NCBI GenBank assembly: GCA_946811695.1
Contig: OX328126.1
Span: 5,168,962-5,232,961, forward strand
Direction: 5' to 3'
DNA: 64,000 nucleotides
DNA from: Gonocerus acuteangulatus
Lineage: Eukaryota > Arthropoda > Insecta > Hemiptera > Coreidae
Positions 556 to 60,254 of the stretch are shown here, piece by piece. A program made the position numbers and the translations under genes. Within the stretch, counting starts at the first letter, position 1. Each line of letters opens with the position of its first letter. Under the pieces are notes generated by a model. That model ran no database searches. It was not told the DNA's origin and saw only the letters and a list, made by a program, of their open reading frames with translations.

Positions 556-1690
556 AGTCAGTACTATTGTCCGACCGCTTGATTGTCCCTATTCTAATCT
601 GGGTTACCCTAGAAGCAGTGGGACCACCATTCATACTCCTGAGAGGTAAAATCTCTCAGTGGTTGTTCGAAATCCGAACTTTGAGAAACAGTAGACAAAT
701 TTATATGTATATTGAAATTAGCAATTGAAATAAACTTGTGTTAAATTAAATAAACAATTATTGGGTCCACAGACCACTCATGTTGGTCTAGGTATAGAAA
801 AGTCTGTTTCCAATAGTGTTAAGAGAATTATTTAAGTTTTGCCCTTGGAAAGGAGAACATGGATGGTTTTAAGCGAATTGACAAAGCAAGGGGAGTTAGC
901 GGACCTACCTACCTTCCTAACATTTCCAATTCTCCGGGGCTTACAAACTTGCTTATCTCCAATAATGGGTTTGGTCGCTGTGTGTTTGACTTAGTGAACC
1001 GGTTTAATTTCAACATACGGATTGCCGAAGGGAGTAATAATTCAACTTTAATGGAATTAAGATCCAGGGGAGATTGAGTCTAGAGTTATGTTGACGATAT
1101 TACCCCGGTGTTTGAGGAAGTTGAGGTTCCATCTATAGGTTATGCTCCAAGTATATATACAAATAACATGAGATACGGATCGTGGAGCAATTAATGTTAA
1201 AACTTTCAATGGGATCAATTTACTGGATAGAAATTGAAAGCACCAAATGTATAGCAGTCAAAAGGTGCCCATAACGATGAGGGATATCTCATGATTTGGA
1301 CTGCGCAGTCCAGATTATTCCTCACCGTAAATAGGACATACTTGAGAGAGTTGATAATAATGAAAACATCCAATAGATTAACTGTACAGTCCAATGAGAC
1401 CGAGACTGTGCAGGCCAGGCTTGATGTGTCTGGACAAGAGGATATTTGCTTCACATTCAGTGGGTCTACTATAACTAGACTGTGCCGTCCCTGTCTTGAG
1501 GTTCATTAACTTATCGTGGGCGTGCTAGATTGTGTGCAGTCTCTGCCTTGATATTTGAACTGTATGGCAATCTTAGCATTTTAGACGTGCGTGTGGATTC
1601 TTCTTCTAAAAGGTAGAATATAATCCACCAGGCGAAAAATTCCAGAAGTGCTTACAGCTGTGACTTTCAAATTTATATATATTAATTTCA
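556..1690. other. Non-repetitive spacer, no recognised gene
   Basis: A 72-codon open frame at 859-1077 begins after AGGAGAAC and has no family resemblance that I recognise; it may be a remnant of a retroelement leader. A perfect 16-bp palindrome TGGACTGCGCAGTCCA lies at 1297-1312, and looser CTGTGCAG-like octamers recur at about 1381, 1407 and 1481. Nothing else stands out. Confidence 0.4.
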
Positions 1691-2470
1691 AAAAGTCCTA
1701 CTCACAGGAACTGCGTCATCTTAGCGTTTCCTATCGTATTCCTAGTGACAAAGCACAGGAAACCAACTTAGTTCTCCCTCATTCTTATGGGAGTCTCTAC
1801 AAGTCAATGAAGAACTAAAATACTCATTACACTCATTAATGTCTTTAAAAAACAACCAATAAGAAAAAGAGATAGCAGACAAAAAAACGTTCTAAATGAC
1901 GAAACCAACATCATTACATTAGAAGGAAATATTCACATGGTGTCTTCGAATCGCCAGAAAGCTCTATTTCTAACATAAAAAAATGTTTCTAATTTTACTT
2001 ATACCTGTTTTATTGACAAAACATTTTTCTAATATAATATGTAATTAAAAAAAATAACAAGAAATAAAAACAGACAAAAAAAAAAAAACTTTCAATAACA
2101 TTTTTTTCTTCAATGTGACCGTCCTATAATAAATTGCTTTAGAATCTTTTTTGTAGAGAATGAAGTAAGCTGTCGAAAGTTTACTTTCCACTTACCACGA
2201 TTTCCTAACCGTTTTCGAGATGTTATAGAAAATATACGAAAATCCCAAAACGTTTCATCCCTGTTATTGAAATATTTTGTTTTTAGTACTTCCGTAATTC
2301 CAAACAGAACCAAAAATTAGCTATCCTAGATTAGATGAATTTCAAAAATCTGGAACAAGCTGTTTCTGAATACCCAAAGTGAAAAAGAATTTGTATCGAT
2401 GTTTCTCGTAGACAGTTACAGATTTTGCTTTGGTTTCATTCGTTTTCCTATGTTAAGAAACCTATAAAAA

Positions 2471-3550
2471 GAGTATCTGCAAGCATATGAACTGGAAAAC
2501 GAGTATCTGCAAGCATATCAACTCGAAAACGAGTATCTGCAAGCATATGAACTGGAAAACGAGTATCTGCAAGCATATGAACTGGAAAACGAGTACCTGC
2601 AAGCATATGAACTCGAAAACGAGTATCTGCAAGCATATGAACTGGAAAACGAGTATCTGCAAGCATATTAACTCGAAAACGAGTATCTGCAAGCATATGA
2701 ACTGGAAAACGAGTATCTGCAAGCATATGAACTGGAAAACGAGTACCTGCAAGCATATCAACTCGAAAACGAGTATCTGCAAGCATATTAACTCGAAAAC
2801 GAGTATCTGCAAGCATATGAACTGGAAAACGAGTATCTGCAAGCATATGAACTGGAAAACGAGTACCTGCAAGCATATCAACTCGAAAACGAGTATCTGC
2901 AAGCATATCAACTCGAAAACGAGTATCTGCAAGCATATTAACTCGAAAACGAGTATCTGCAAGCATATCAACTCGAAAACGAGTACCTGCAAGCATATCA
3001 ACTCGAAAACGAGTATCTGCAAGCATATCAACTCGAAAACGAGTATCTGCAAGCATATCAACTCGAAAACGAGTATCTGCAAGCATATCAACTCGAAAAC
3101 GAGTATCTGCAAGCATATGAACTGGAAAACGAGTATCTGCAAGCATATCAACTCGAAAACGAGTATCTGCAAGCATATCAACTCGAAAACGAGTACCTGC
3201 AAGCATATCAACTCGAAAACGAGTACCTGCAAGCATATCAACTCGAAAACGAGTATCTGCAAGCATATTAACTCGAAAACGAGTATCTGCAAGCATATGA
3301 ACTGGAAAACGAGTATCTGCAAGCATATCAACTCGAAAACGAGTACCTGCAAGCATATCAACTCGAAAACGAGTATCTGCAAGCATATCAACTCGAAAAC
3401 GAGTATCTGCAAGCATATGAACTGGAAAACGAGTATCTGCAAGCATATCAACTCGAAAACGAGTACCTGCAAGCATATCAACTCGAAAACGAGTATCTGC
3501 AAGCATATTAACTCGAAAACGAGTATCTGCAAGCATATCAACTCGAAAAC
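2471..3550. repeat. Minisatellite, 36 x 30 bp
   Basis: Exactly 36 units of 30 bp (GAGTATCTGCAAGCATATSA followed by ACTSGAAAAC). Variation is confined to a few positions: ATGA/ATCA/ATTA, CTGG/CTCG and TATC/TACC. Because 30 is divisible by three, open frames of about 360 codons run on both strands, but they are products of the periodicity. The homologous place in the R1 copy at 23754-23800 holds a single unit. Confidence 0.95.
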
Positions 3551-3662
3551 GTAAGCGTTACCACTTTTTTCGCGTGAATTTTGCTCCAAAAACCGTGTTG
3601 GGGTAGACGGATTCTCCTGGTTAACGAACTTGACCTTTCAAATTATAAGAAAGATTTTTGTG

Positions 3663-3666
<4 letters not shown>

Positions 3667-3721
<55 letters not shown>

Positions 3722-3722
3722 A
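3667..3722. repeat. (TA)n(TG)n microsatellite inside R1
   Basis: Alternating TA followed by TG. The same slot in other R1 copies (23959-24021, 42437-42471, 57467-57536) also holds a TA run, so it is an intrinsic part of the element. Confidence 0.9.
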
Positions 3723-3818
3723 CAAATTTGAACTACCGACATTTTCGTGAACCATGGGTTGTGAAACATGAAAGTTTCTTCATCCCTTTGGAGGGAGGGA
3801 GGAACCGCGCTAAAAAGA

Positions 3819-4216
3819 AATAATAATAGGATAATTAATAAAGATTATATGATATTAAACCCGCCTAGAGACAAACCATCATATTTCCCGAAGTAATTGC
3901 ATTTGTAAGAGCACGTGCCGAACCCCTGTGTTTATAGAATGTGGGCTCTATTAATTAACTCTCTGAAATAGATTCGAAACGCCCTTGAGTGGAAGACAAA
4001 TAGAGATACTGGACTTTATCAATGTTTTCCCACTAGGAATTGCCAGCGGTATGGAGTTAGTGGTGGCCTTTGTTTGTATTCATTTGGAATAGCAACACTT
4101 TTTATTTCATTCGATTTTAGGGGACCGCCAAAAAGCCACCACTAGCGGCGAGGAAAAAAAGTGTAAATTCCATTTCAACACGGAACATCGACCAAAATTC
4201 ATTTTAGAAGAACTTT
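3819..4216. other. Spacer, nothing recognised
   Basis: AT-rich single-copy-looking sequence between an R1 tail and a Harbinger-like start. No open frame, tRNA-like box or repeat seen. Confidence 0.4.
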
Positions 4217-19800: not shown

Positions 19801-20066
19801 AATATTAAACGTCTAAACGCCGTTATTATTTTGGCGCAATATACTGGTTCTAGTGAGTACTTGTTCGTTAGTGGCTGAGAACGGATAAAGCGCATTTTCG
19901 TCAATATGCAAGGTGTTTGTGGATTTTTAGAATGCGTATTTGCATGAAAGTAAAACAAAATGACACAAGAGCCCAGAGCAAGAGATATTGTAGAGTGACC
20001 ATACAGCGCACTAGGAAGATAGTGCGGTAAGTACTATGCTCCGACTACGTTCTCCATCTTTGTGGG

Positions 20067-21834
20067 CAGAGTTGGGCAAACGTTAGCGCGCGCTAAAAGC
20101 TGATACCTCTCCGCTAATTTAGCGAAACTGTAGAAAGCCAGCGCTAACAATTAGCGGTTAGCGGCGGCAGTGCGCTAACCGCTAATCTATGTATGAAATA
20201 TGGTAATTGCTGAAAGCTTAAGCTATAGTTACATCATTTTGTCATCTCAAAGCTCACTTCCGGTCTGCTCGGAGCAACCTCACTCCTCTTCCACTTCCGC
20301 TTCAATCTACAGGATTTCCGATCACATAAATGTCAATTTCGGTTACTTCCGGTCGACTCTTGCCTATCACTGGGTAACACCTGTTTGATCTGGCTCACTT
20401 CCGGTCACTCACAGACAATGGCACACTCTGACACTCCTTAATCAGGTTACTTCCGGTCCTATATTCATCCCTGGGTCATTTCCGGAAGTACCCCAGGGCT
20501 TTCCAGACACTCATGATAGACCGGAGGTGAACCGGCAGTGACCCGGAAGTAATTTTAAGCAACCGGAAGTGGTCCGAAGTTGTCCAGATTCATCCGGAAA
20601 CTGTCCAGGAGTAATTTTGGTGACCCGGAAGCCATTTTGGGAACCCGGAAGTGAAACCGGAAGTGGCCAAAAGTTGTCCAGATTCATCCGGAAACTGTCC
20701 AGGAGTAATTTTGGTGACCCGGAAGCCATTTTGGGAACACGGCAGTGAAACCGGAAGTGGCCAAAAGTTGTCCAGATTCATCCGGAAACTGTCAAGGAGT
20801 AATTTTGGTGGCCCGGAGGCCATTTTGGGAACCCGGAAGTGAAACCGGAAGTGGCCAAAAGTTGTCCAGATTCATCCGGAAACTGTCCAGGAGTAATTTT
20901 GGTGACCCGGAAGCCATTTTGGGAACCCGGAAGTGAAACCGGAAGTGGCCAAAAGTTGTCCAGATTCGCCCGGAAACTGTCCAGGAGTAATTTTGGGGAC
21001 CCGGAAGCCATTTTGATAATCCCTGGGGCGAATTTGAGTAGCTTTTGGCCACTTCCGGTTTCACTTCCGTGTTCCTAAAATGGCTTCCGGGTCACCAAAA
21101 TTACTCCTGGACAGTTTCCGGATGAATCTGGACAACTTTTGGCCACTTCCGGTTTCACTTCCGTGTTCCCAAAATGGCTTCCGGGTCACCAAAATTACTC
21201 CTGGACAGTTTCCGGATGAATCTGGACAACTTTTGGCCACTTCCGGGTTCCCAAAATGGCCTCCGGGCCACCAAAATTACTCCTTGACAGTTTCCGGATG
21301 AATCTGGACAACTTTTGGCCACTTCCGGTTTCACTGCCGGTTGCTTAAAATTACTTCCGGGTCACTGCCGGTTCGCCTCCGGTCTATCATGAGTGCCTGG
21401 AAGGCCCTGGGGTACTTCCGGAAACGACCCAGGGATGAATATAGGACCGGAAGTAACCTAGATTAAGGAGTGTCAGAGTGTGCCATTGTCTGTGAGTGAC
21501 CGGAAGTGAGCCAGATCGAACAGGTGTTACCCAGTGATAGGCAGGAGTCGACCGGAAGTAACCGAAATTGACATTCATGTGATCGGAAATCCTGTAGAGT
21601 GAAGCGGAAGTGGAACAGGAGAGAGGGTGCTCAGAGCAGACCGGAAGTGAGCTTTGAGATGACAAAATGTAACTATAGCTTAAGCTTTCAGCAATTACCA
21701 TATTTCATAAATAGATTAGCGGTTAGCGCACTGCCGCCGCTAACCGCTAATTATTAGCGCTGGCTTTCTACAGATTCGCTAAATTAGCGGAGAGGTATCA
21801 GCTTTTAGCGCGCGCTAACGTTTGCCCAACTCTG
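20067..21834. mobile_element. hAT-type foldback element, 1768 bp, perfect 8-bp target duplication
   Basis: The ends CAGAGTTGGGCAAACG (20067 on) and CGTTTGCCCAACTCTG (to 21834) are exact inverses. They start with CAG..TTGGGCAA, as many hAT elements do, and are flanked by TTTGTGGG at 20059-20066 and 21835-21842. The inverted similarity covers nearly the whole element: outer arms with GCGCGCTAAAAGCTGATACC, then TTTAGCG-rich sequence, then 94-bp internal units that switch orientation near 21020. It has no transposase, so it must depend on another source. About two dozen CCGGAAGT/ACTTCCGG octamers lie inside. Confidence 0.9.
20580..21345. repeat. 94-bp internal units, inverted about the centre
   Basis: About 4.6 units on the left half (20580-21008) in one orientation and about 2.8 on the right half (21046-21345) in the other. 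Each holds TTTTGGCCACTTCCGG or its inverse, and CCAGGAGTAATTTTGGTGAC. The apparent short proteins in this region are repeats of one another and not genes. Confidence 0.92.
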
Positions 21835-21842
21835 TTTGTGGG

Positions 21843-24765: not shown

Positions 24766-25580
24766 TATGTGAGAAGCGAAAATTTTTTTTCAGTTTTTGA
24801 CAATTATTATATTTTATTTATGGCTTGAAATGGTTTCGTAAATTGTGCTAACTTAAAGTTAATTAGATCATAAATAAAAAGTTATATTCGGAAATTAATT
24901 TAGAACGGTCGGAGAAAACTGGAGATTGAAGACATATATCCTTTTTTCTGCGGTTCTTAGCAGTCAAATGATTTTGCTTGTTGGCATTTTATTCCAATTT
25001 TTACAAGAGGGTAATTTTCGCCTGATATTGGGACTTTATCTTTCTTTGTAATAAGACAATGGTGCTACAAGTAACAAAGTTTTTAAAGTTCTCGTTCCAA
25101 CAGGGATTTAATTTAAGTTTTCCAGCAAAATTCGCTCCATTTTTAGATATGTTGCATTCATTCGAACTAGGATGTATACATTTTTGTTACGTCAGAAGGA
25201 AATAAATTAATATTTATTTATTGATAATGCTCTGGATCTAAACCGAATAGCATTCAAAACCTTGTAATAAGCTGATGTAGGCGGTGCATTAAACTATGCC
25301 ACTCCAAAATATTAGCTCAGACAATTAGGTAAGTATTGAAGTACAAATAGACAAGAAAACAAGAATTAAATAAATTACTAGAAAATAAATTAAAAAATAA
25401 ATTTTAAGTTAATAAGTTAATTTTTAAATTAGTTGAGAGATTTATTTTTATTGTATCATTATTGCAAAAAAAAAAAGGTGAAATGGAATCTTTTGGTTAT
25501 TGTATCATTTTATATTTTGCCGTATGTTTGTGTTACTCAAATATGTCAATGCGGTGTCAATAAGATGGCTGCCTTGCGAA
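24766..25580. other. AT-rich spacer
   Basis: No gene or repeat recognised. Confidence 0.4.
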
Positions 25581-27540
25581 AGTCTGTCTGTCAGGTCATG
25601 AGGAATGTCCATGTTATGCCGTAACCGACAGTATGTCTGTCAGGTCATGAGGAATGTCCAAGTTATGCCGTAACCGACAGTATGTCTGTCAGGTCATGAG
25701 GAATGTCCAAGGTATGCCGTAACCGACAGTATGTCTGTCAGGTCATGAGGAATGTCCAAGGTATGCCGTAACCGACAGTATGTCTGTCAGGTCATGAGGA
25801 ATGTCCAAGTTATGCCATAACCGACAGTATGTCTGTCAGGTCATGAGGAATGTCCAAGGTATGCCGTAACCGACAGTCTGTCTGTCAGGTCATGAGGAAT
25901 GTCCAAGGTATGCCGTAACCGACAGTATGTCTGTCAGGTCATGAGGAATGTCCAAGTTATGCCGTAACCGACAGTCTGTCTGTCAGGTCATGAGGAATGT
26001 CCAAGGTATGCCGTAACCGACAGTATGTCTGTCAGGTCATGAGGAATGTCCAAGTTATGCCGTAACCGACAGTATGTCTGTCAGGTCATGAGGAATGTCC
26101 AAGTTATGCCGTAACCGACAGTCTGTCTGTCAGGTCATGAGGAATGTCCAAGGTATGCCGTAACCGACAGTATGTCTGTCAGGTCATGAGGAATGTCCAA
26201 GTTATGCCGTAACCGACAGTATGTCTGTCAGGTCATGAGGAATGTCCAAGGTATGTCGTAACCGACAGTATGTCTGTCAGGTCATGAGGAATGTCCAAGG
26301 TATGCCGTAACCGACAGTCTGTCTGTCAGGTCATGAGGAATGTCCATGTTATGCCGTAACCGACAGTATGTCTGTCAGGTCATGAGGAATGTCCAAGTTA
26401 TGCCGTAACCGACAGTCTGTCTGTCAGGTCATGAGGAATGTCCAAGGTATGCCGTAACCGACAGTATGTCTGTCAGGTCATGAGGAATGTCCAAGTTATG
26501 CCGTAACCGACAGTATGTCTGTCAGGTCATGAGGAATGTCCAAGTTATGCCGTAACCGACAGTCTGTCTGTCAGGTCATGAGGAATGTCCAAGGTATGCC
26601 GTAACCGACAGTATGTCTGTCAGGTCATGAGGAATGTCCAAGTTATGCCGTAACCGACAGTATGTCTGTCAGGTCATGAGGAATGTCCAAGGTATGTCGT
26701 AACCGACAGTATGTCTGTCAGGTCATGAGGAATGTCCAAGGTATGCCGTAACCGACAGTCTGTCTGTCAGGTCATGAGGAATGTCCATGTTATGCCGTAA
26801 CCGACAGTATGTCTGTCAGGTCATGAGGAATGTCCAAGTTATGCCGTAACCGACAGTATGTCTGTCAGGTCATGAGGAATGTCCAAGGTATGCCGTAACC
26901 GACAGTCTGTCTGTCAGGTCATGAGGAATGTCCATGTTATGCCGTAACCGACAGTATGTCTGTCAGGTCATGAGGAATGTCCAAGTTATGCCGTAACCGA
27001 CAGTATGTCTGTCAGGTCATGAGGAATGTCCAAGGTATGCCGTAACCGACAGTATGTCTGTCAGGTCATGAGGAATGTCCAAGTTATGCCGTAACCGACA
27101 GTATGTCTGTCAGGTCATGAGGAATGTCCAAGTTATGCCGTAACCGACAGTCTGTCTGTCAGGTCATGAGGAATGTCCAAGGTATGCCGTAACCGACAGT
27201 ATGTCTGTCAGGTCATGAGGAATGTCCAAGTTATGCCGTAACCGACAGTATGTCTGTCAGGTCATGAGGAATGTCCAAGGTATGCCGTAACCGACAGTAT
27301 GTCTGTCAGGTCATGAGGAATGTCCAAGTTATGCCGTAACCGACAGTATGTCTGTCAGGCCATGAGGAATGTCCAAGGTATGCCGTAACCGACAGTATGT
27401 CTGTCAGGTCATAAGGAATGTCCAAGGTATGCCGTAACCAACAGTATGTCTGTCAGGTCATGAGGAATGTCCAAGTTATGCCGTAACCGACAGTATGTCT
27501 GTCAGGTCATGAGGAATGTCCAAGGTATGCCGTAACCGAC
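25581..27540. repeat. Minisatellite, 40 x 49 bp, derived from LINE coding sequence
   Basis: Forty units containing TCTGTCAGGTCATGAGGAAT, with variants A/C at TATG/TCTG, and GTT/GGT. It joins without a break to LINE sequence at 27541. On the minus strand one unit encodes the DIPHDLTDILS stretch that follows the terminal Cys/His motif. Because 49 is not divisible by three, the frame rotates between units and no long frame results. Confidence 0.95.
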
Positions 27541-27965
27541 AGTCTGTTAGAATATGTTTTACTGTAAGGTCTATGTTGCAAGTCGTACACTTGGGTTTGT
27601 CAGTCTTTGTCATCAGGTACCCATGAGTTATGCATGTATGGCCGATTCTCAGCCTAGCAAGGACTACTTCTTCTCGGCGTGAGTTCCTGTACGATGATGT
27701 CCAGTCAGTAATATTGTGTTTAATAGTTCTTGGTTTATTGTCAGTCACAGTATGCCAATCAAGTCGCCATTTGTCTAGTATGTTTAGTAACGTCATGGTG
27801 AAATAGATCAAATGGTTGGTATGTATTTCTTCAGTTATAACTCTAGCATGTCTGTCAGCTGTATTATTTCCTCCGAGATCATTATGTCCAGGCAGCCATG
27901 ATAGTGTTATATGTGTTCCTGTACTTTGTAATTCGTGTATTTTATCCCCTTCAGGTCCGAATTTT
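27541..27965 (-). pseudogene. Jockey-type LINE ORF2 C-terminal remnant
   Basis: The minus strand carries THITLSWLPGHNDLGGNNTA (RNase H), then DWTSSYRNSRREEVVLARLR, THGYLMTKTDKPKCTTC and DLTVKHILTDCRLRHTLDIP, the last containing CX2C..HX4C. The frame is open from 27811 down to 27476, where it enters the 49-bp array. It is the same family as 9810-11165. The RNase H part lies in a different frame, so at least one frameshift exists near 27815. RT absent. Confidence 0.8.
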
Positions 27966-44867: not shown

Positions 44868-47800
44868 CTGCTGGGTCACTTATAGCAGCCCTGCGTCTCT
44901 GACAAACCCTCTGATCCTCTGAGGTGTGAGCTCAGAATCTCTTCCTTATAGCAGCCCTGCGTCTCTGACAAACCCTCTGATCCTCTGAGGTGTGAGCTCA
45001 GAATCTCTTCCTTATAGCAGCCCTGCGTCCCTGACAAACCCTCTGATCCTCTGAGGTGTGAGCTCAGAATCTCTTCCTTATAGCAGCCCTGCGTCTCTGA
45101 CAAACCCTCTGATCCTCTGAGGTGTGAGCTCAGAATCTCTTCCTTATAGCAGCCCTGCGTCTCTGACAAACCCTCTGATCCTCTGAGGAGTGAGCTCAGA
45201 ATCTCTTCCTTATAGCAGCCCTGCGTCCCTGACAAACCCTCTGATCCTCTGAGGTGTGAGCTCAGAATCTCTTCCTGGGTCACTTATAGCAGCCCTGCGT
45301 CTCTGACAAACCCTCTGATCCTCTGAGGAGTGAGCTCAGAATCTCTTCCTGGGTCACTTATAGCAGCCCTGCGTCTCTGACAAACCCTCTGATCCTCTGA
45401 GGTGTGAGCTCAGAATTTCTTCCAGGGTCAGTTATAGCAGCCCTGCGTCCCTGACAAACCCTCTGATCCTCTGAGGAGTGAGCTCAGACTCTCTTCCTTA
45501 TAGCAGCCCTGCGTCTCTGACAAACCCTCTGATCTTCTGAGGTGTGAGCTCAGAATTTCTTCCTTATAGCAGCCCTGCGTCCCTGACAAACCCTCTGATC
45601 TTCTGAGGTGTGAGCTCAGAATCTCTTCCTTATAGCAGCCCTGCGTCTCTGACAAACCCTCTGATCTTCTGAGGTGTGAGCTCAGAATTTCTTCCTTATA
45701 GCAGCCCTGCGTCTCTGACAAACCCTCTGATCTTCTGAGGTGTGAGCTCAGAATTTCTTCCTTATAGCAGCCCTGCGTCCCTGACAAACCCTCTGATCTT
45801 CTGAGGTGAGAGCTCAGAATCTCTTCCTTATAGCAGCCCTGCGTCCCTGACAAACCCTCTGATCTTCTGAGGTGTGAACTCAGAATTTCTTCCTTATAGC
45901 AGCCCTGCGTCCCTGACAAACCCTCTGATCTTCTGAGGTGTGAGCTCAGAATTTCTTCCTTATAGCAGCCCTGCGTCCCTGACAAACCCTCTGATCTTCT
46001 GAGGTGTGAGCTCAGAATCTCTTCCTTATAGCAGCCCTGCGTCTCTGACAAACCCTCTGATCTTCTGAGGTGTGAACTCAGAATTTCTTCCTTATAGCAG
46101 CCCTGCGTCCCTGACAAACCCTCTGATCTTCTGAGGTGTGAGCTCAGAATTTCTTCCTTATAGCAGCCCTGCGTCTCTGACAAACCCTCTGATCTTCTGA
46201 GGTGTGAACTCAGACTCTCTTCCTTATAGCAGCCCTGCGTCTCTGACAAACCCTCTGATCTTCTGAGGTGTGAACTCAGACTCTCTTCCTTATAGCAGCC
46301 CTGCGTCCCTGACAAACCCTCTGATCTTCTGAGGTGTGAGCTCAGAATCTCTTCCTTATAGCAGCCCTGCGTCCCTGACAAACCCTCTGACCTTCTGAGG
46401 TGTGAGCTCAGAATCTCTTCCTTATAGCAGCCCTGCGTCTCTGACAAACCCTCTGATCTTCTGAGGTGTGAGCTCAGAATTTCTTCCTTATAGCAGCCCT
46501 GCGTCCCTGACAAACCCTCTGATCTTCTGAGGTGTGAACTCAGACTCTCTTCCTTATAGCAGCCCTGCGTCCCTGACAAACCCTCTGATCTTCTGAGGTG
46601 TGAGCTCAGAATCTCTTCCTTATAGCAGCCCTGCGTCTCTGACAAACCCTCTGATCTTCTGAGGTGTGAGCTCAGAATTTCTTCCTTATAGCAGCCCTGC
46701 GTCCCTGACAAACCCTCTGATCTTCTGAGGTGTGAGCTCAGAATCTCTTCCTTATAGCAGCCCTGCGTCTCTGACAAACCCTCTGATCTTCTGAGGTGTG
46801 AGCTCAGAATCTCTTCCTTATAGCAGCCCTGCGTCCCTGACAAACCCTCTGATCTTCTGAGGTGTGAGCTCAGAATTTCTTCCTTATAGCAGCCCTGCGT
46901 CCCTGACAAACCCTCTGATCTTCTGAGGTGTGAGCTCAGAATCTCTTCCTTATAGCAGCCCTGCGTCCCTGACAAACCCTCTGATCTTCTGAGGTGTGAG
47001 CTCAGAATTTCTTCCTTATAGCAGCCCTGCGTCTCTGACAAACCCTCTGATCCTCTGAGGAGTGAGCTCAGACTCTCTTCCTTATAGCAGCCCTGCGTCC
47101 CTGACAAACCCTCTGATCTTCTGAGGTGTGAACTCAGAATTTCTTCCTTATAGCAGCCCTGCGTCTCTGACAAACCCTCTGATCTTCTGAGGTGTGAGCT
47201 CAGAATCTCTTCCTTATAGCAGCCCTGCGTCTCTGACAAACCCTCTGATCTTCTGAGGTGTGAACTCAGAATCTCTTCCTTATAGCAGCCCTGCGTCCCT
47301 GACAAACCCTCTGATCTTCTGAGGTGCGAACTCAGAATTTCTTCCTTATAGCAGCCCTGCGTCCCTGACAAACCCTCTGATCTTCTGAGGTGTGAGCTCA
47401 GAATTTCTTCCTTATAGCAGCCCTGCGTCCCTGACAAACCCTCTGATCTTCTGAGGTGTGAACTCAGAATCTCTTCCTTATAGCAGCCCTGCGTCCCTGA
47501 CAAACCCTCTGATCTTCTGAGGTGTGAACTCAGAATTTCTTCCTTATAGCAGCCCTGCGTCTCTGACAAACCCTCTGATCTTCTGAGGTGTGAACTCAGA
47601 ATCTCTTCCTTATAGCAGCCCTGCGTCCCTGACAAACCCTCTGATCTTCTGAGGTGTGAGCTCAGAATTTCTTCCTTATAGCAGCCCTGCGTCCCTGACA
47701 AACCCTCTGATCTTCTGAGGTGTGAACTCAGAATTTCTTCCTTATAGCAGCCCTGCGTCCCTGACAAACCCTCTGATCTTCTGAGGTGTGAGCTCAGAAT

Positions 47801-47948
47801 CTCTTCCTTATAGCAGCCCTGCGTCTCTGACAAACCCTCTGATCTTCTGAGGTGTGAACTCAGAATTTCTTCCTTATAGCAGCCCTGCGTCCCTGACAAA
47901 CCCTCTGATCTTCTGAGGTGTGAGCTCAGAATTTCTTCCAGGGTCAGT
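44868..47948. repeat. Large minisatellite, about 46 x 66 bp
   Basis: Units of 66 bp (TTATAGCAGCCCTGCGTCYC, CTGATCYTCTGAGGTGTGAG). Four junctions near the low-coordinate side carry 8 extra bases (TGGGTCAC), giving 74-bp units and breaking the frame. The rest stays in frame on the minus strand, producing an 823-codon frame of 22-residue repeats. Most variable sites change the amino acid (G/E, G/R, I/S, H/L), so there is no sign of protein-level selection. Confidence 0.96.
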
Positions 47949-49296: not shown

Positions 49297-49352
49297 GATA
49301 CATAAAAACAAAGAAAAGAAAATAATAATAATAAAAACAACAATTCTTTCGG

Positions 49353-49547
49353 CCAACGGCCATAGCCACGTTGAATACACCGGTTCCCGTAGATCACCGA
49401 AGTTAAGCAACATCGGGCGTGGTCAGTACCTGAATGGGTGACCGACCACGTGCTGTTGGCATTAGAAAAGGGTGGCAACCTGTAGATAGCCCGGCGGCCT
49501 AATAGCCAAATAGTTGATGCGCCGTAAAAAAAAAGAAAAAAAAAACA
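49353..49547 (+). mobile_element. 5S-rRNA-derived SINE (SINE3 type), 14-bp target duplication
   Basis: The head resembles 5S rRNA along its full length (CACGTTGAATACACCGGTTC, GATCACCGAAGTTAAGCAAC, GGTCAGTACCTGAATGGGTG, ending GTGCTGTTGGC). It includes the internal RNA polymerase III control regions. A short body (AAAAGGGTGGCAACCTGTAG) and tail (GTTGATGCGCCGTAAAAA) follow, with an A-rich end. Flanks AACAATTCTTTCGG at 49339-49352 and 49548-49561 are perfect duplications. The 3' end of the 5S part differs from a working gene, so it is not a functional rRNA gene. Confidence 0.9.
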
Positions 49548-58330: not shown

Positions 58331-58562
58331 AAAATATGAGTACCTTTGCATAAATTCCTAGCAACCTGAAAATTTCCATGAAAGATAGGGACAACATTAT
58401 AAGGGAATTGGGAAGAGTGCGAAGAATTTGTTTCGAGGTCAAAGTTCGCTAAAAAAGGTTTTTAGGAATTTTCAGCGAAACGTTTTGTTTTATGGTAAAA
58501 ATAGTTGAGACAAAAATTGTAGATCGTGCAATTATGTACAAAACTTCATTACACTTCACTTT
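58331..58562. other. Spacer before the 46-bp array
   Basis: No feature recognised. Confidence 0.4.
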
Positions 58563-59988
58563 TTCTTCTATTAGGAGGAACCTCCGTCTCTGAGACGGGT
58601 ACCTTGATTTCTTCTATTAGGAGGAACCTCCGTCTCTGAGACGGGTATCTTGATTTCTTCTATTAGGAGGAACCTCCGTCTCTGAGACGGGTACCTTGAT
58701 TTCTTCTATTAGGAGGAACCTCCGTCTCTGAGACGGGTACCTTGATTTCTTCTATTAGGAGGAACATCCGTCTCTGAGACGGGTACCTTGATTTCTTCTA
58801 TTAGGAGGAACCTCCGTCTCTGAGACGGGTACCTTGATTTCTTCTATTAGGAGGAACCTCCGTCTCTGAGACGGGTACCTTGATTTCTTCTATTAGGAGG
58901 AACCTCCGTCTCTGAGACGGGTACCTTGATTTCTTCTATTAGGAGGAACATCCGTCTCTGAGACGGGTACCTTGATTTCTTCTATTAGGAGGAACCTCCG
59001 TCTCTGAGACGGGTACCTTGATTTCTTCTATTAGGAGGAACCTCCGTCTCTGAGACGGGTACCTTGATTTCTTCTATTAGGAGGAACATCCGTCTCTGAG
59101 ACGGGTACCTTGATTTCTTCTATTAGGAGGAACATCCGTCTCTGAGACGGGTACCTTGATTTCTTCTATTAGGAGGGACCTCCGTCTCTGAGACGGGTAC
59201 CTTGATTTCTTCTATTAGGAGGAACCTCCGTCTCTGAGACGGGTATCTTGATTTCTTCTATTAGGAGGAACATCCGTCTCTGAGACGGGTACCTTGATTT
59301 CTTCTATTAGGAGGAACCTCCGTCTCTGAGACGGGTACCTTGATTTCTTCTATTAGGAGGAACATCCGTCTCTGAGACGGGTACCTTGATTTCTTCTATT
59401 AGGAGGGACCTCCGTCTCTGAGACGGGTACCTTGATTTCTTCTATTAGGAGGAACATCCGTCTCTGAGACGGGTACCTTGATTTCTTCTATTAGGAGGGA
59501 CCTCCGTCTCTGAGACGGGTACCTTGATTTCTTCTATTAGGAGGAACCTCCGTCTCTGAGACGGGTACCTTGATTTCTTCTATTAGGAGGGACCTCCGTC
59601 TCTGAGACGGGTACCTTGATTTCTTCTATTAGGAGGAACATCCGTCTCTGAGACGGGTACCTTGATTTCTTCTATTAGGAGGAACCTCCGTCTCTGAGAC
59701 GGGTACCTTGATTTCTTCTATTAGGAGGGACCTCCGTCTCTGAGACGGGTACCTTGATTTCTTCTATTAGGAGGAACCTCCGTCTCTGAGACGGGTACCT
59801 TGATTTCTTCTATTAGGAGGGACCTCCGTCTCTGAGACGGGTACCTTGATTTCTTCTATTAGGAGGAACCTCCGTCTCTGAGACGGGTACCTTGATTTCT
59901 TCTATTAGGAGGGACCTCCGTCTCTGAGACGGGTACCTTGATTTCTTCTATTAGGAGGAACATCCGTCTCTGAGACGGGTACCTTGAT
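58563..59988. repeat. Minisatellite, 31 x 46 bp
   Basis: Exactly 31 units. Each has the inverted pair CCGTCTC-T-GAGACGG and TTGATTTCTTCTATTAGGAG. Three variants (GGAACC, GGAACA, GGGACC) are interspersed. Related single motifs lie at 61195-61210 and 61425. Confidence 0.96.
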
Positions 59989-60254
59989 TTCCACATTGTC
60001 AACACCCTAATAATTATTATTAAGTCACATACCATTTATCTAATAATTGGTACGTAGTTTCGTTTGTTAAAGGAAAAATAAATGCTACAAAAGAAAAATA
60101 TTTATTTCTGAATAACATTAAAATTATGAAATGTGTGTATAGGAAACCCAAATTCTTTCTGCCTATGCAGTCTTTTTATCTTTATTTTTTTTCCTTTCCT
60201 TTACTTTTATTACTTTAATTTCAGTCAAATTTACTGTAAAAAATTACAACGAGA

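Follow-up and report, generated by a model that had tools for sequence, protein, structure and literature searches.

A hAT-type foldback family of Gonocerus acuteangulatus includes a subfamily with arrays of ETS-like sites that might serve the element

The window analysed in this work, a 64,000-nucleotide stretch of the Gonocerus acuteangulatus assembly GCA_946811695.1 (contig OX328126.1, positions 5,168,962 to 5,232,961), contains a 1,768-bp non-autonomous foldback element of hAT type (20067..21834) whose arms hold many copies of a motif, CCGGAAGT or ACTTCCGG, resembling the binding sites of ETS proteins. The ETS-like array is real, confined to one subfamily of a large family of such elements, and probably under some constraint. 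Our preferred reading, to which we give even chances, is that the arms of this non-autonomous hAT foldback subfamily recruit an ETS protein of the host for the element's own benefit and that tandem amplification adds further sites. We are more tentative about the broader proposition that a hAT foldback lineage evolved its array of host ETS sites spaced by 52 bp for its own spread, and in doing so seeded hundreds of clusters over a 1.1-Gb genome.

The element is flanked by a perfect 8-bp target site duplication (TSD), TTTGTGGG, at 20059..20066 and 21835..21842, and its outermost 30 bases, CAGAGTTGGGCAAACGTTAGCGCGCGCTAA, are identical at both ends, in agreement with the CAG-type ends and perfect duplication described in the initial annotation of this DNA. 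Each end consists of a module with the terminal inverted repeat (TIR) CAGAGTTGGGCAAACG and nine CGCTAA repeats; strands are given here for the features to which one was assigned. The left module, on the plus strand (20067..20231, right limit approximate), has its nine CGCTAA/TTAGCG at 20083-20185 and closely matches part of the motif-free short copies of the family, and the right module (21670..21834, inner limit approximate) is on the minus strand. Inward of them lie the outer arms with ETS-like sites, at 20256..20489 on the left (sites at 20256, 20293 with one mismatch, 20345, 20397, 20449, and an overlapping pair at 20478, with one mismatch, and 20482) and at 21414..21648 on the right (21414, 21447, 21500, 21552, 21604 with one mismatch, and 21641). 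The centre is occupied by tandem arrays of a 94-bp unit, with 4.8 units carrying CCGGAAGT at 20561..21015 on the plus strand and 3.6 units carrying ACTTCCGG, with one 82-bp step, at 21042..21365 on the minus strand. Complementarity between the arms is 96-98% in their three outer blocks, and long inverted arms with internal tandem repeats, the architecture of foldback elements, are found in this copy and in others. The motif, counted by eye at about 24 copies in the initial annotation, occurs exactly 24 times in the element (14 in the left half and 10 in the right half), and another 15 sites differ from it by one mismatch; when the element was shuffled 500 times with its dinucleotides preserved, exact copies averaged 0.08 and never exceeded 2. 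The whole window has 27 occurrences versus 1.03 expected.

The outer arms are where the motif appears to be more than copied unit sequence. In the consensus of the outer arm, a step of exactly 52 bp separates consecutive sites at 227 (one mismatch), 279, 331 and 383; in the window copy, the steps of the left arm are 52 bp from site 20293 onward, and one step of the right arm is 53 bp. Among the outer-arm sites, including that at 190, agreement is 95% in the 8-mer, 45% in the next four bases on each side and 17-32% beyond. Local alignment finds no relation among the three 40-base spacers between the consensus sites spaced by 52 bp (P 0.27-0.76; in register, 9-15 of 40 positions are identical), and for a shorter fourth spacer two of the three comparisons reach P 0.03-0.04. 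Plain duplication of a 52-bp unit would leave alike spacers unless only the motif was held. We regard this pattern of spacing and spacers as strong evidence that the motif exceeds the copied unit.

The genome around the window comprises 1.106 Gb in 135 contigs. The family has the end CAGAGTTGGGCAA, with CGCTAA repeats, and 2,840 exact matches to its 22-bp end were counted genome-wide (1,430 forward and 1,410 reverse), versus none for the reversed control; no exact match was found in the viral and prokaryote collections. Copies were sampled in two ways. The top-hit sample comprises the 35 regions that best match the first 202 bases and is biased to close copies; paired ends are present in 33 of them, which are 885-2,071 bp long except for one that contains a nested insertion and measures 4,223 bp, and all 33 contain CCGGAAGT (8-29 per copy), 30 of them within a perfect TSD. 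The positional sample was built from 100 listed exact ends on contig C1, up to 41.9 Mb, which yielded 59 loci: 41 pairs, and 18 ends for which the list gives no exact partner, although for the last of them this may be because the list ends there. Three pairs (L039, L041 and L042) are common to both samples, and for several unpaired loci the second end is not reached by the fetched region, so that their plan is seen in part.

An ETS-like array is present in 16 of the 59 positional loci; 36 are short or truncated without an array, and 7 have other interiors. The 41 pairs comprise 28 short copies (261-504 bp) without CCGGAAGT, 12 copies with the array and one foldback with another array, and all 41 have perfect TSDs (37/37 in the main pair set, plus L045/L046, L039, L041 and L042). 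Among the unpaired loci, four have the array (9-22 sites), five form a diverged group (0-2 sites), one has a 24-bp array and eight are short or truncated without sites; in one unpaired locus, L084, the single ETS-like site falls outside the element. The proposal that each insertion delivers a cluster of ETS sites thus holds for the array subfamily and fails for the short paired copies, none of which has any. Two of the 16 array loci, L057 (C1:9.67 Mb) and L059 (C1:12.28 Mb), are identical copies of 1,593 bp whose TSDs are reverse complements of each other, and they apparently represent a single insertion later duplicated in inverted orientation. Extrapolation from 16/59 loci, which cover part of one contig, and 2,840 ends gives roughly 450 arrays in the genome. 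The family is a real and large one of hAT-type foldbacks, and it appears to have been recently active, because near-identical copies carry perfect TSDs. In twelve copies (L019, L021, L022, L023, L025, L026, L028, L032, L035, L038, L039 and L041), one arm no longer follows the usual outer-arm sequence beyond about position 148; in the three of these that were inspected (L019, L025 and L028), the end module joins the 94-bp array directly.

Comparison between copies provides a second line of evidence. In the unique outer arm (element positions 149-462), the variation of the motif columns is 0.40 times that of the others (72 arms from 46 elements; P 0.012 versus random windows), with P 0.035 in the positional sample (21 arms, 15 elements) and 0.066 in the top-hit sample (51 arms, 31 elements), all these P values being optimistic since the arms of one element or subfamily are not independent. 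Arms entered the retention tests only if they could be aligned over their whole length (55 of 68, then 69 of 86, then 72 of 90). The duplicate L059 was dropped from the tests on the 94-bp array, the context-corrected test and the 72-arm test, and kept in the 69-arm test, in which 1 of 313 slides was as low as the motif (Fisher p 0.044, one-sided). With the two samples pooled, changes common to different elements are depleted in the motif relative to private ones (1/57 versus 26/226, p 0.022), pointing toward constraint in propagating copies. A first estimate of retention (0.064 versus 0.12; 0 of 304 slides) had mixed arm types and was replaced. Overall, cross-copy retention in the unique outer arm represents moderate evidence that the motif is held.

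ETS proteins are animal proteins, and ETS domains (PF00178) are encoded in this genome, with 15 matches over the cut-off, five of them with internal stops, versus none in 14 control genomes of kinds that are not stated, which fits an animal host. The initial annotation had recognised the ETS-family consensus in the motif, and the 24 exact copies of CCGGAAGT do match the class I ETS consensus reported as ACCGGAAGT(G/A) (PMC4447949), being preceded partly by A and partly by C or T. Binding by a host ETS protein and not by some other factor is our best guess. It is tempting to propose the following scheme. The end module would be the binding site for a transposase supplied by an unseen autonomous relative. 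The inner arms of one subfamily carry a set of ACCGGAAGT(G/A) sites, which might be bound by a class I ETS protein of the host. Such binding could aid the spread of the element, for instance through chromatin opening or transcription in cells where transposition occurs, and the 94-bp units would later have multiplied the sites through ordinary tandem amplification.

Several observations weigh against ETS recruitment as the role of the arms. Retention is modest. In the 55-arm set, 25 of 313 slides were as low as the motif, with p 0.39 by a two-sided Fisher test on variable sites; in the 69-arm set, p rises to 0.31 if at least two variant arms per site are required. Once corrected for base and CpG context, the events number 22 observed versus 30.8 expected (P 0.06), and shared versus private changes with all elements together amount to 5/75 versus 18/163 (p 0.35). 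In the 94-bp array (176 distinct units), the motif varies 0.029 versus 0.046, which amounts to no special retention, since 27 of 93 slides reach an equally low value; greater conservation of the motif than of its flanks, a point that the initial annotation had left for verification, is thus found in the unique outer arm and does not reach significance in the array. The motif is also dispensable for mobility: judging from the 28 short paired copies, CCGGAAGT is not needed for transposition, because all 28 lack it and have perfect TSDs, with 10-18 CGCTAA each. Same-end copies with a 24-bp array and the copies of the L089 type likewise do without the ETS-like array. Finally, silenced copies might bind nothing, by analogy with mammalian Etv1, because the latter does not bind a CpG-methylated site (PMC4447949).

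Among the alternatives, neutral growth of the foldback fares best, and yet we consider it rather unlikely. Slippage or unequal exchange would amplify any short repeat, in this case by accident CCGGAAGT, whose resemblance to ETS sites would be due to chance. As expected from such a process, copies with the same ends hold other arrays. A 10,453-bp foldback (L045:101-5375 and L046:1-5178, at G000:C1:34380026-34390478) with family ends and the TSD GTTGCTGG on both sides has arms made of a 24-bp minisatellite, AAGGATATAGAAGGTGGTATTAGG, and no CCGGAAGT; L086 contains the same 24-bp array, and L099 a 116-bp repeat. The wide range of site numbers per copy and the behaviour of the 94-bp unit also fit neutral growth. 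Because same-end elements carry 24-bp and 116-bp arrays, the growth of arrays in these elements needs no ETS function, and it is the motif pattern of the outer arm that needs explaining. Unit duplication, however, does not explain outer-arm sites that combine 52-bp spacing with unrelated spacers, and the variation ratio in the unique region also argues against this hypothesis. The idea that the 94-bp unit itself is a decayed array of 10-11-mers was unsupported (P 0.13).

That the motif might merely be a subrepeat bound by the transposase, as envisaged in the initial annotation, is disfavoured by the organisation of the ends. CGCTAA is the top hexamer within 190 bp of each end, with nine copies in each (versus a mean of 0.5-0.6 and a maximum of 4 in shuffles); the complete CCGGAAGT is absent from these 190-bp ends, and between them CCGGAAGT is repeated and CGCTAA absent. 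Over columns 23-120 of 109 arms from all subgroups, the CGCTAA columns vary 0.035 versus 0.1125 for the others, with 0 of 97 slides as low; columns 1-22 were left out, being invariant by the choice of exact 22-bp ends, and the figures were computed both with and without L059. The transposase probably has its main site elsewhere than in CCGGAAGT, because motif-free copies have moved and CGCTAA is the conserved end repeat. Alternatively, CCGGAAGT could be an accessory site to which the autonomous transposase binds through another DNA-binding domain, by analogy with the THAP domain of Galileo. A diverged group of five loci (L089, L094, L097, L099 and L083), about 80% identical in their first 209 bases and with differing interiors beyond, is in keeping with this idea, as four of them, all except L083, keep the first ACTTCCGG, at 197. 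We nevertheless find an accessory site improbable, given the intact TSDs of the motif-free short copies and the conservation across subgroups of the CGCTAA that holds the ends; CCGGAAGT may still have a helper role in transposition. The arms might also act as a source of hairpin RNA, their inverted-repeat transcripts forming double-stranded RNA that feeds small-RNA silencing with the motif being incidental, which their near-complementarity and the equal plan of the motif-free foldback with the 24-bp array would fit, but this seems most improbable as it leaves motif retention and the 52-bp spacing unexplained.

As for the superfamily, hAT elements have CAG-type TIRs and the target consensus nTnnnnAn. 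The present family has a short TIR of this type with a repeated subterminal motif, and its TSDs are 8 bp long, with T2 or A7 in 89 of 154 half-sites over 77 TSDs (p 6e-12); the TSD of the window copy has T2, but G at position 7. These features support membership in hAT, as the initial annotation had it, and the assignment rests on ends and TSDs because no cognate transposase was found among the long copies inspected (L013, L044 and L045/L046). The TSDs of Galileo are 7 bp long, unlike those of this family. The P superfamily is not excluded by TSD length alone, because the P element has an 8-bp TSD.

Each of these long copies, considered as a candidate for the autonomous partner that the initial annotation suggested seeking, was rejected. 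In L013 (4,223 bp), a hAT-like open reading frame (ORF) of 580 amino acids sits in a different, nested hAT element (L013:1525-4334). The latter is 2,810 bp long, with the ends CAGGGGTCGGCAACC, its own TSD CTGTAGAG and an open transposase-like frame that matches Pfam zinc finger and hAT dimerisation regions below the curated cut-offs. The ORFs of L044 (3,815 bp) belong to a nested unrelated insertion, at about 1379-3831 (about 2.45 kb), with the ends CACCGGTATGCA and CACAGGTCTGCA, an apparent TTA duplication (by eye) and broken frames. L045/L046 is the foldback with the 24-bp array described above, with a nested stretch in mid-element that by eye resembles a long interspersed nuclear element.

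In the window itself, none of the 10 ORFs matched a Pfam family at E 0.001. A computed RNA fold of the left array scored z -3.25 and was given no weight in the interpretation. When the flanks of the element were joined to represent the empty site, no uninterrupted copy was present among the matches listed. Elsewhere in the window, a 5S ribosomal RNA match lies at 49352-49461 (Rfam RF00001, 64.8 bits), and very many long, nearly perfect minisatellites occur between 2466 and 61604 (for example at 25577-27547, 44879-47939 and 58562-59991).

No hAT foldback with ETS sites was found among the literature matches listed, which are partial lists that leave most subscription papers outside, and the end sequence of the element was not found in the literature searched. 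The Tetris and DAIBAM elements of Drosophila virilis are reported to be a foldback and a miniature inverted-repeat transposable element (MITE) with common TIR ends (PMC4079207). Like the present family, Tetris is described as an apparently non-autonomous foldback that has internal tandem repeats in its TIRs and TIR ends in common with a MITE, and one autonomous element probably mobilises both (PMC4079207). Unlike in the present family, its repeats are about 220 bp long and give rise to satellites, and the abstract names no transcription-factor motif; the terms hAT, TSD, target site duplication and 8 bp were not found in the text of that paper. Galileo, of the P superfamily, shows that repeated sites in long TIRs can bind the transposase (PMC3688188). 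Both families thus have long, internally repetitive TIRs with repeated protein-binding sites, putative ones in our case. In Galileo, however, the TIR sites are bound by a P-type transposase with a THAP domain (PMC3688188), whereas in the present family the sequence repeated at the ends differs from the inner motif. The transposase of Herves from Anopheles gambiae and other hAT transposases are described to bind short repeats near the ends (PMC3143072), a likeness that fits the role proposed for CGCTAA, although Herves has a different motif and its own transposase.

If the arms do bind ETS proteins, a single mobile family would have supplied one genome with hundreds of ETS-site clusters, dense and similar to one another, for which the motif-free sister copies with common ends would represent built-in controls. 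Do foldback arms serve the element, and can a transposon select for host-factor sites that favour its own mobility rather than the host? A parallel for such an amplification is that of the Brassicaceae MITEs, some of them hAT elements, which are reported to have multiplied E2F sites (Henaff 2014, cited in the review PMC12595863). There, as in the present family, mobile DNA amplifies a host transcription-factor site genome-wide; the Brassicaceae case involves plants and E2F, whereas ours combines an ETS-like site with long foldback arms in an animal-like genome.
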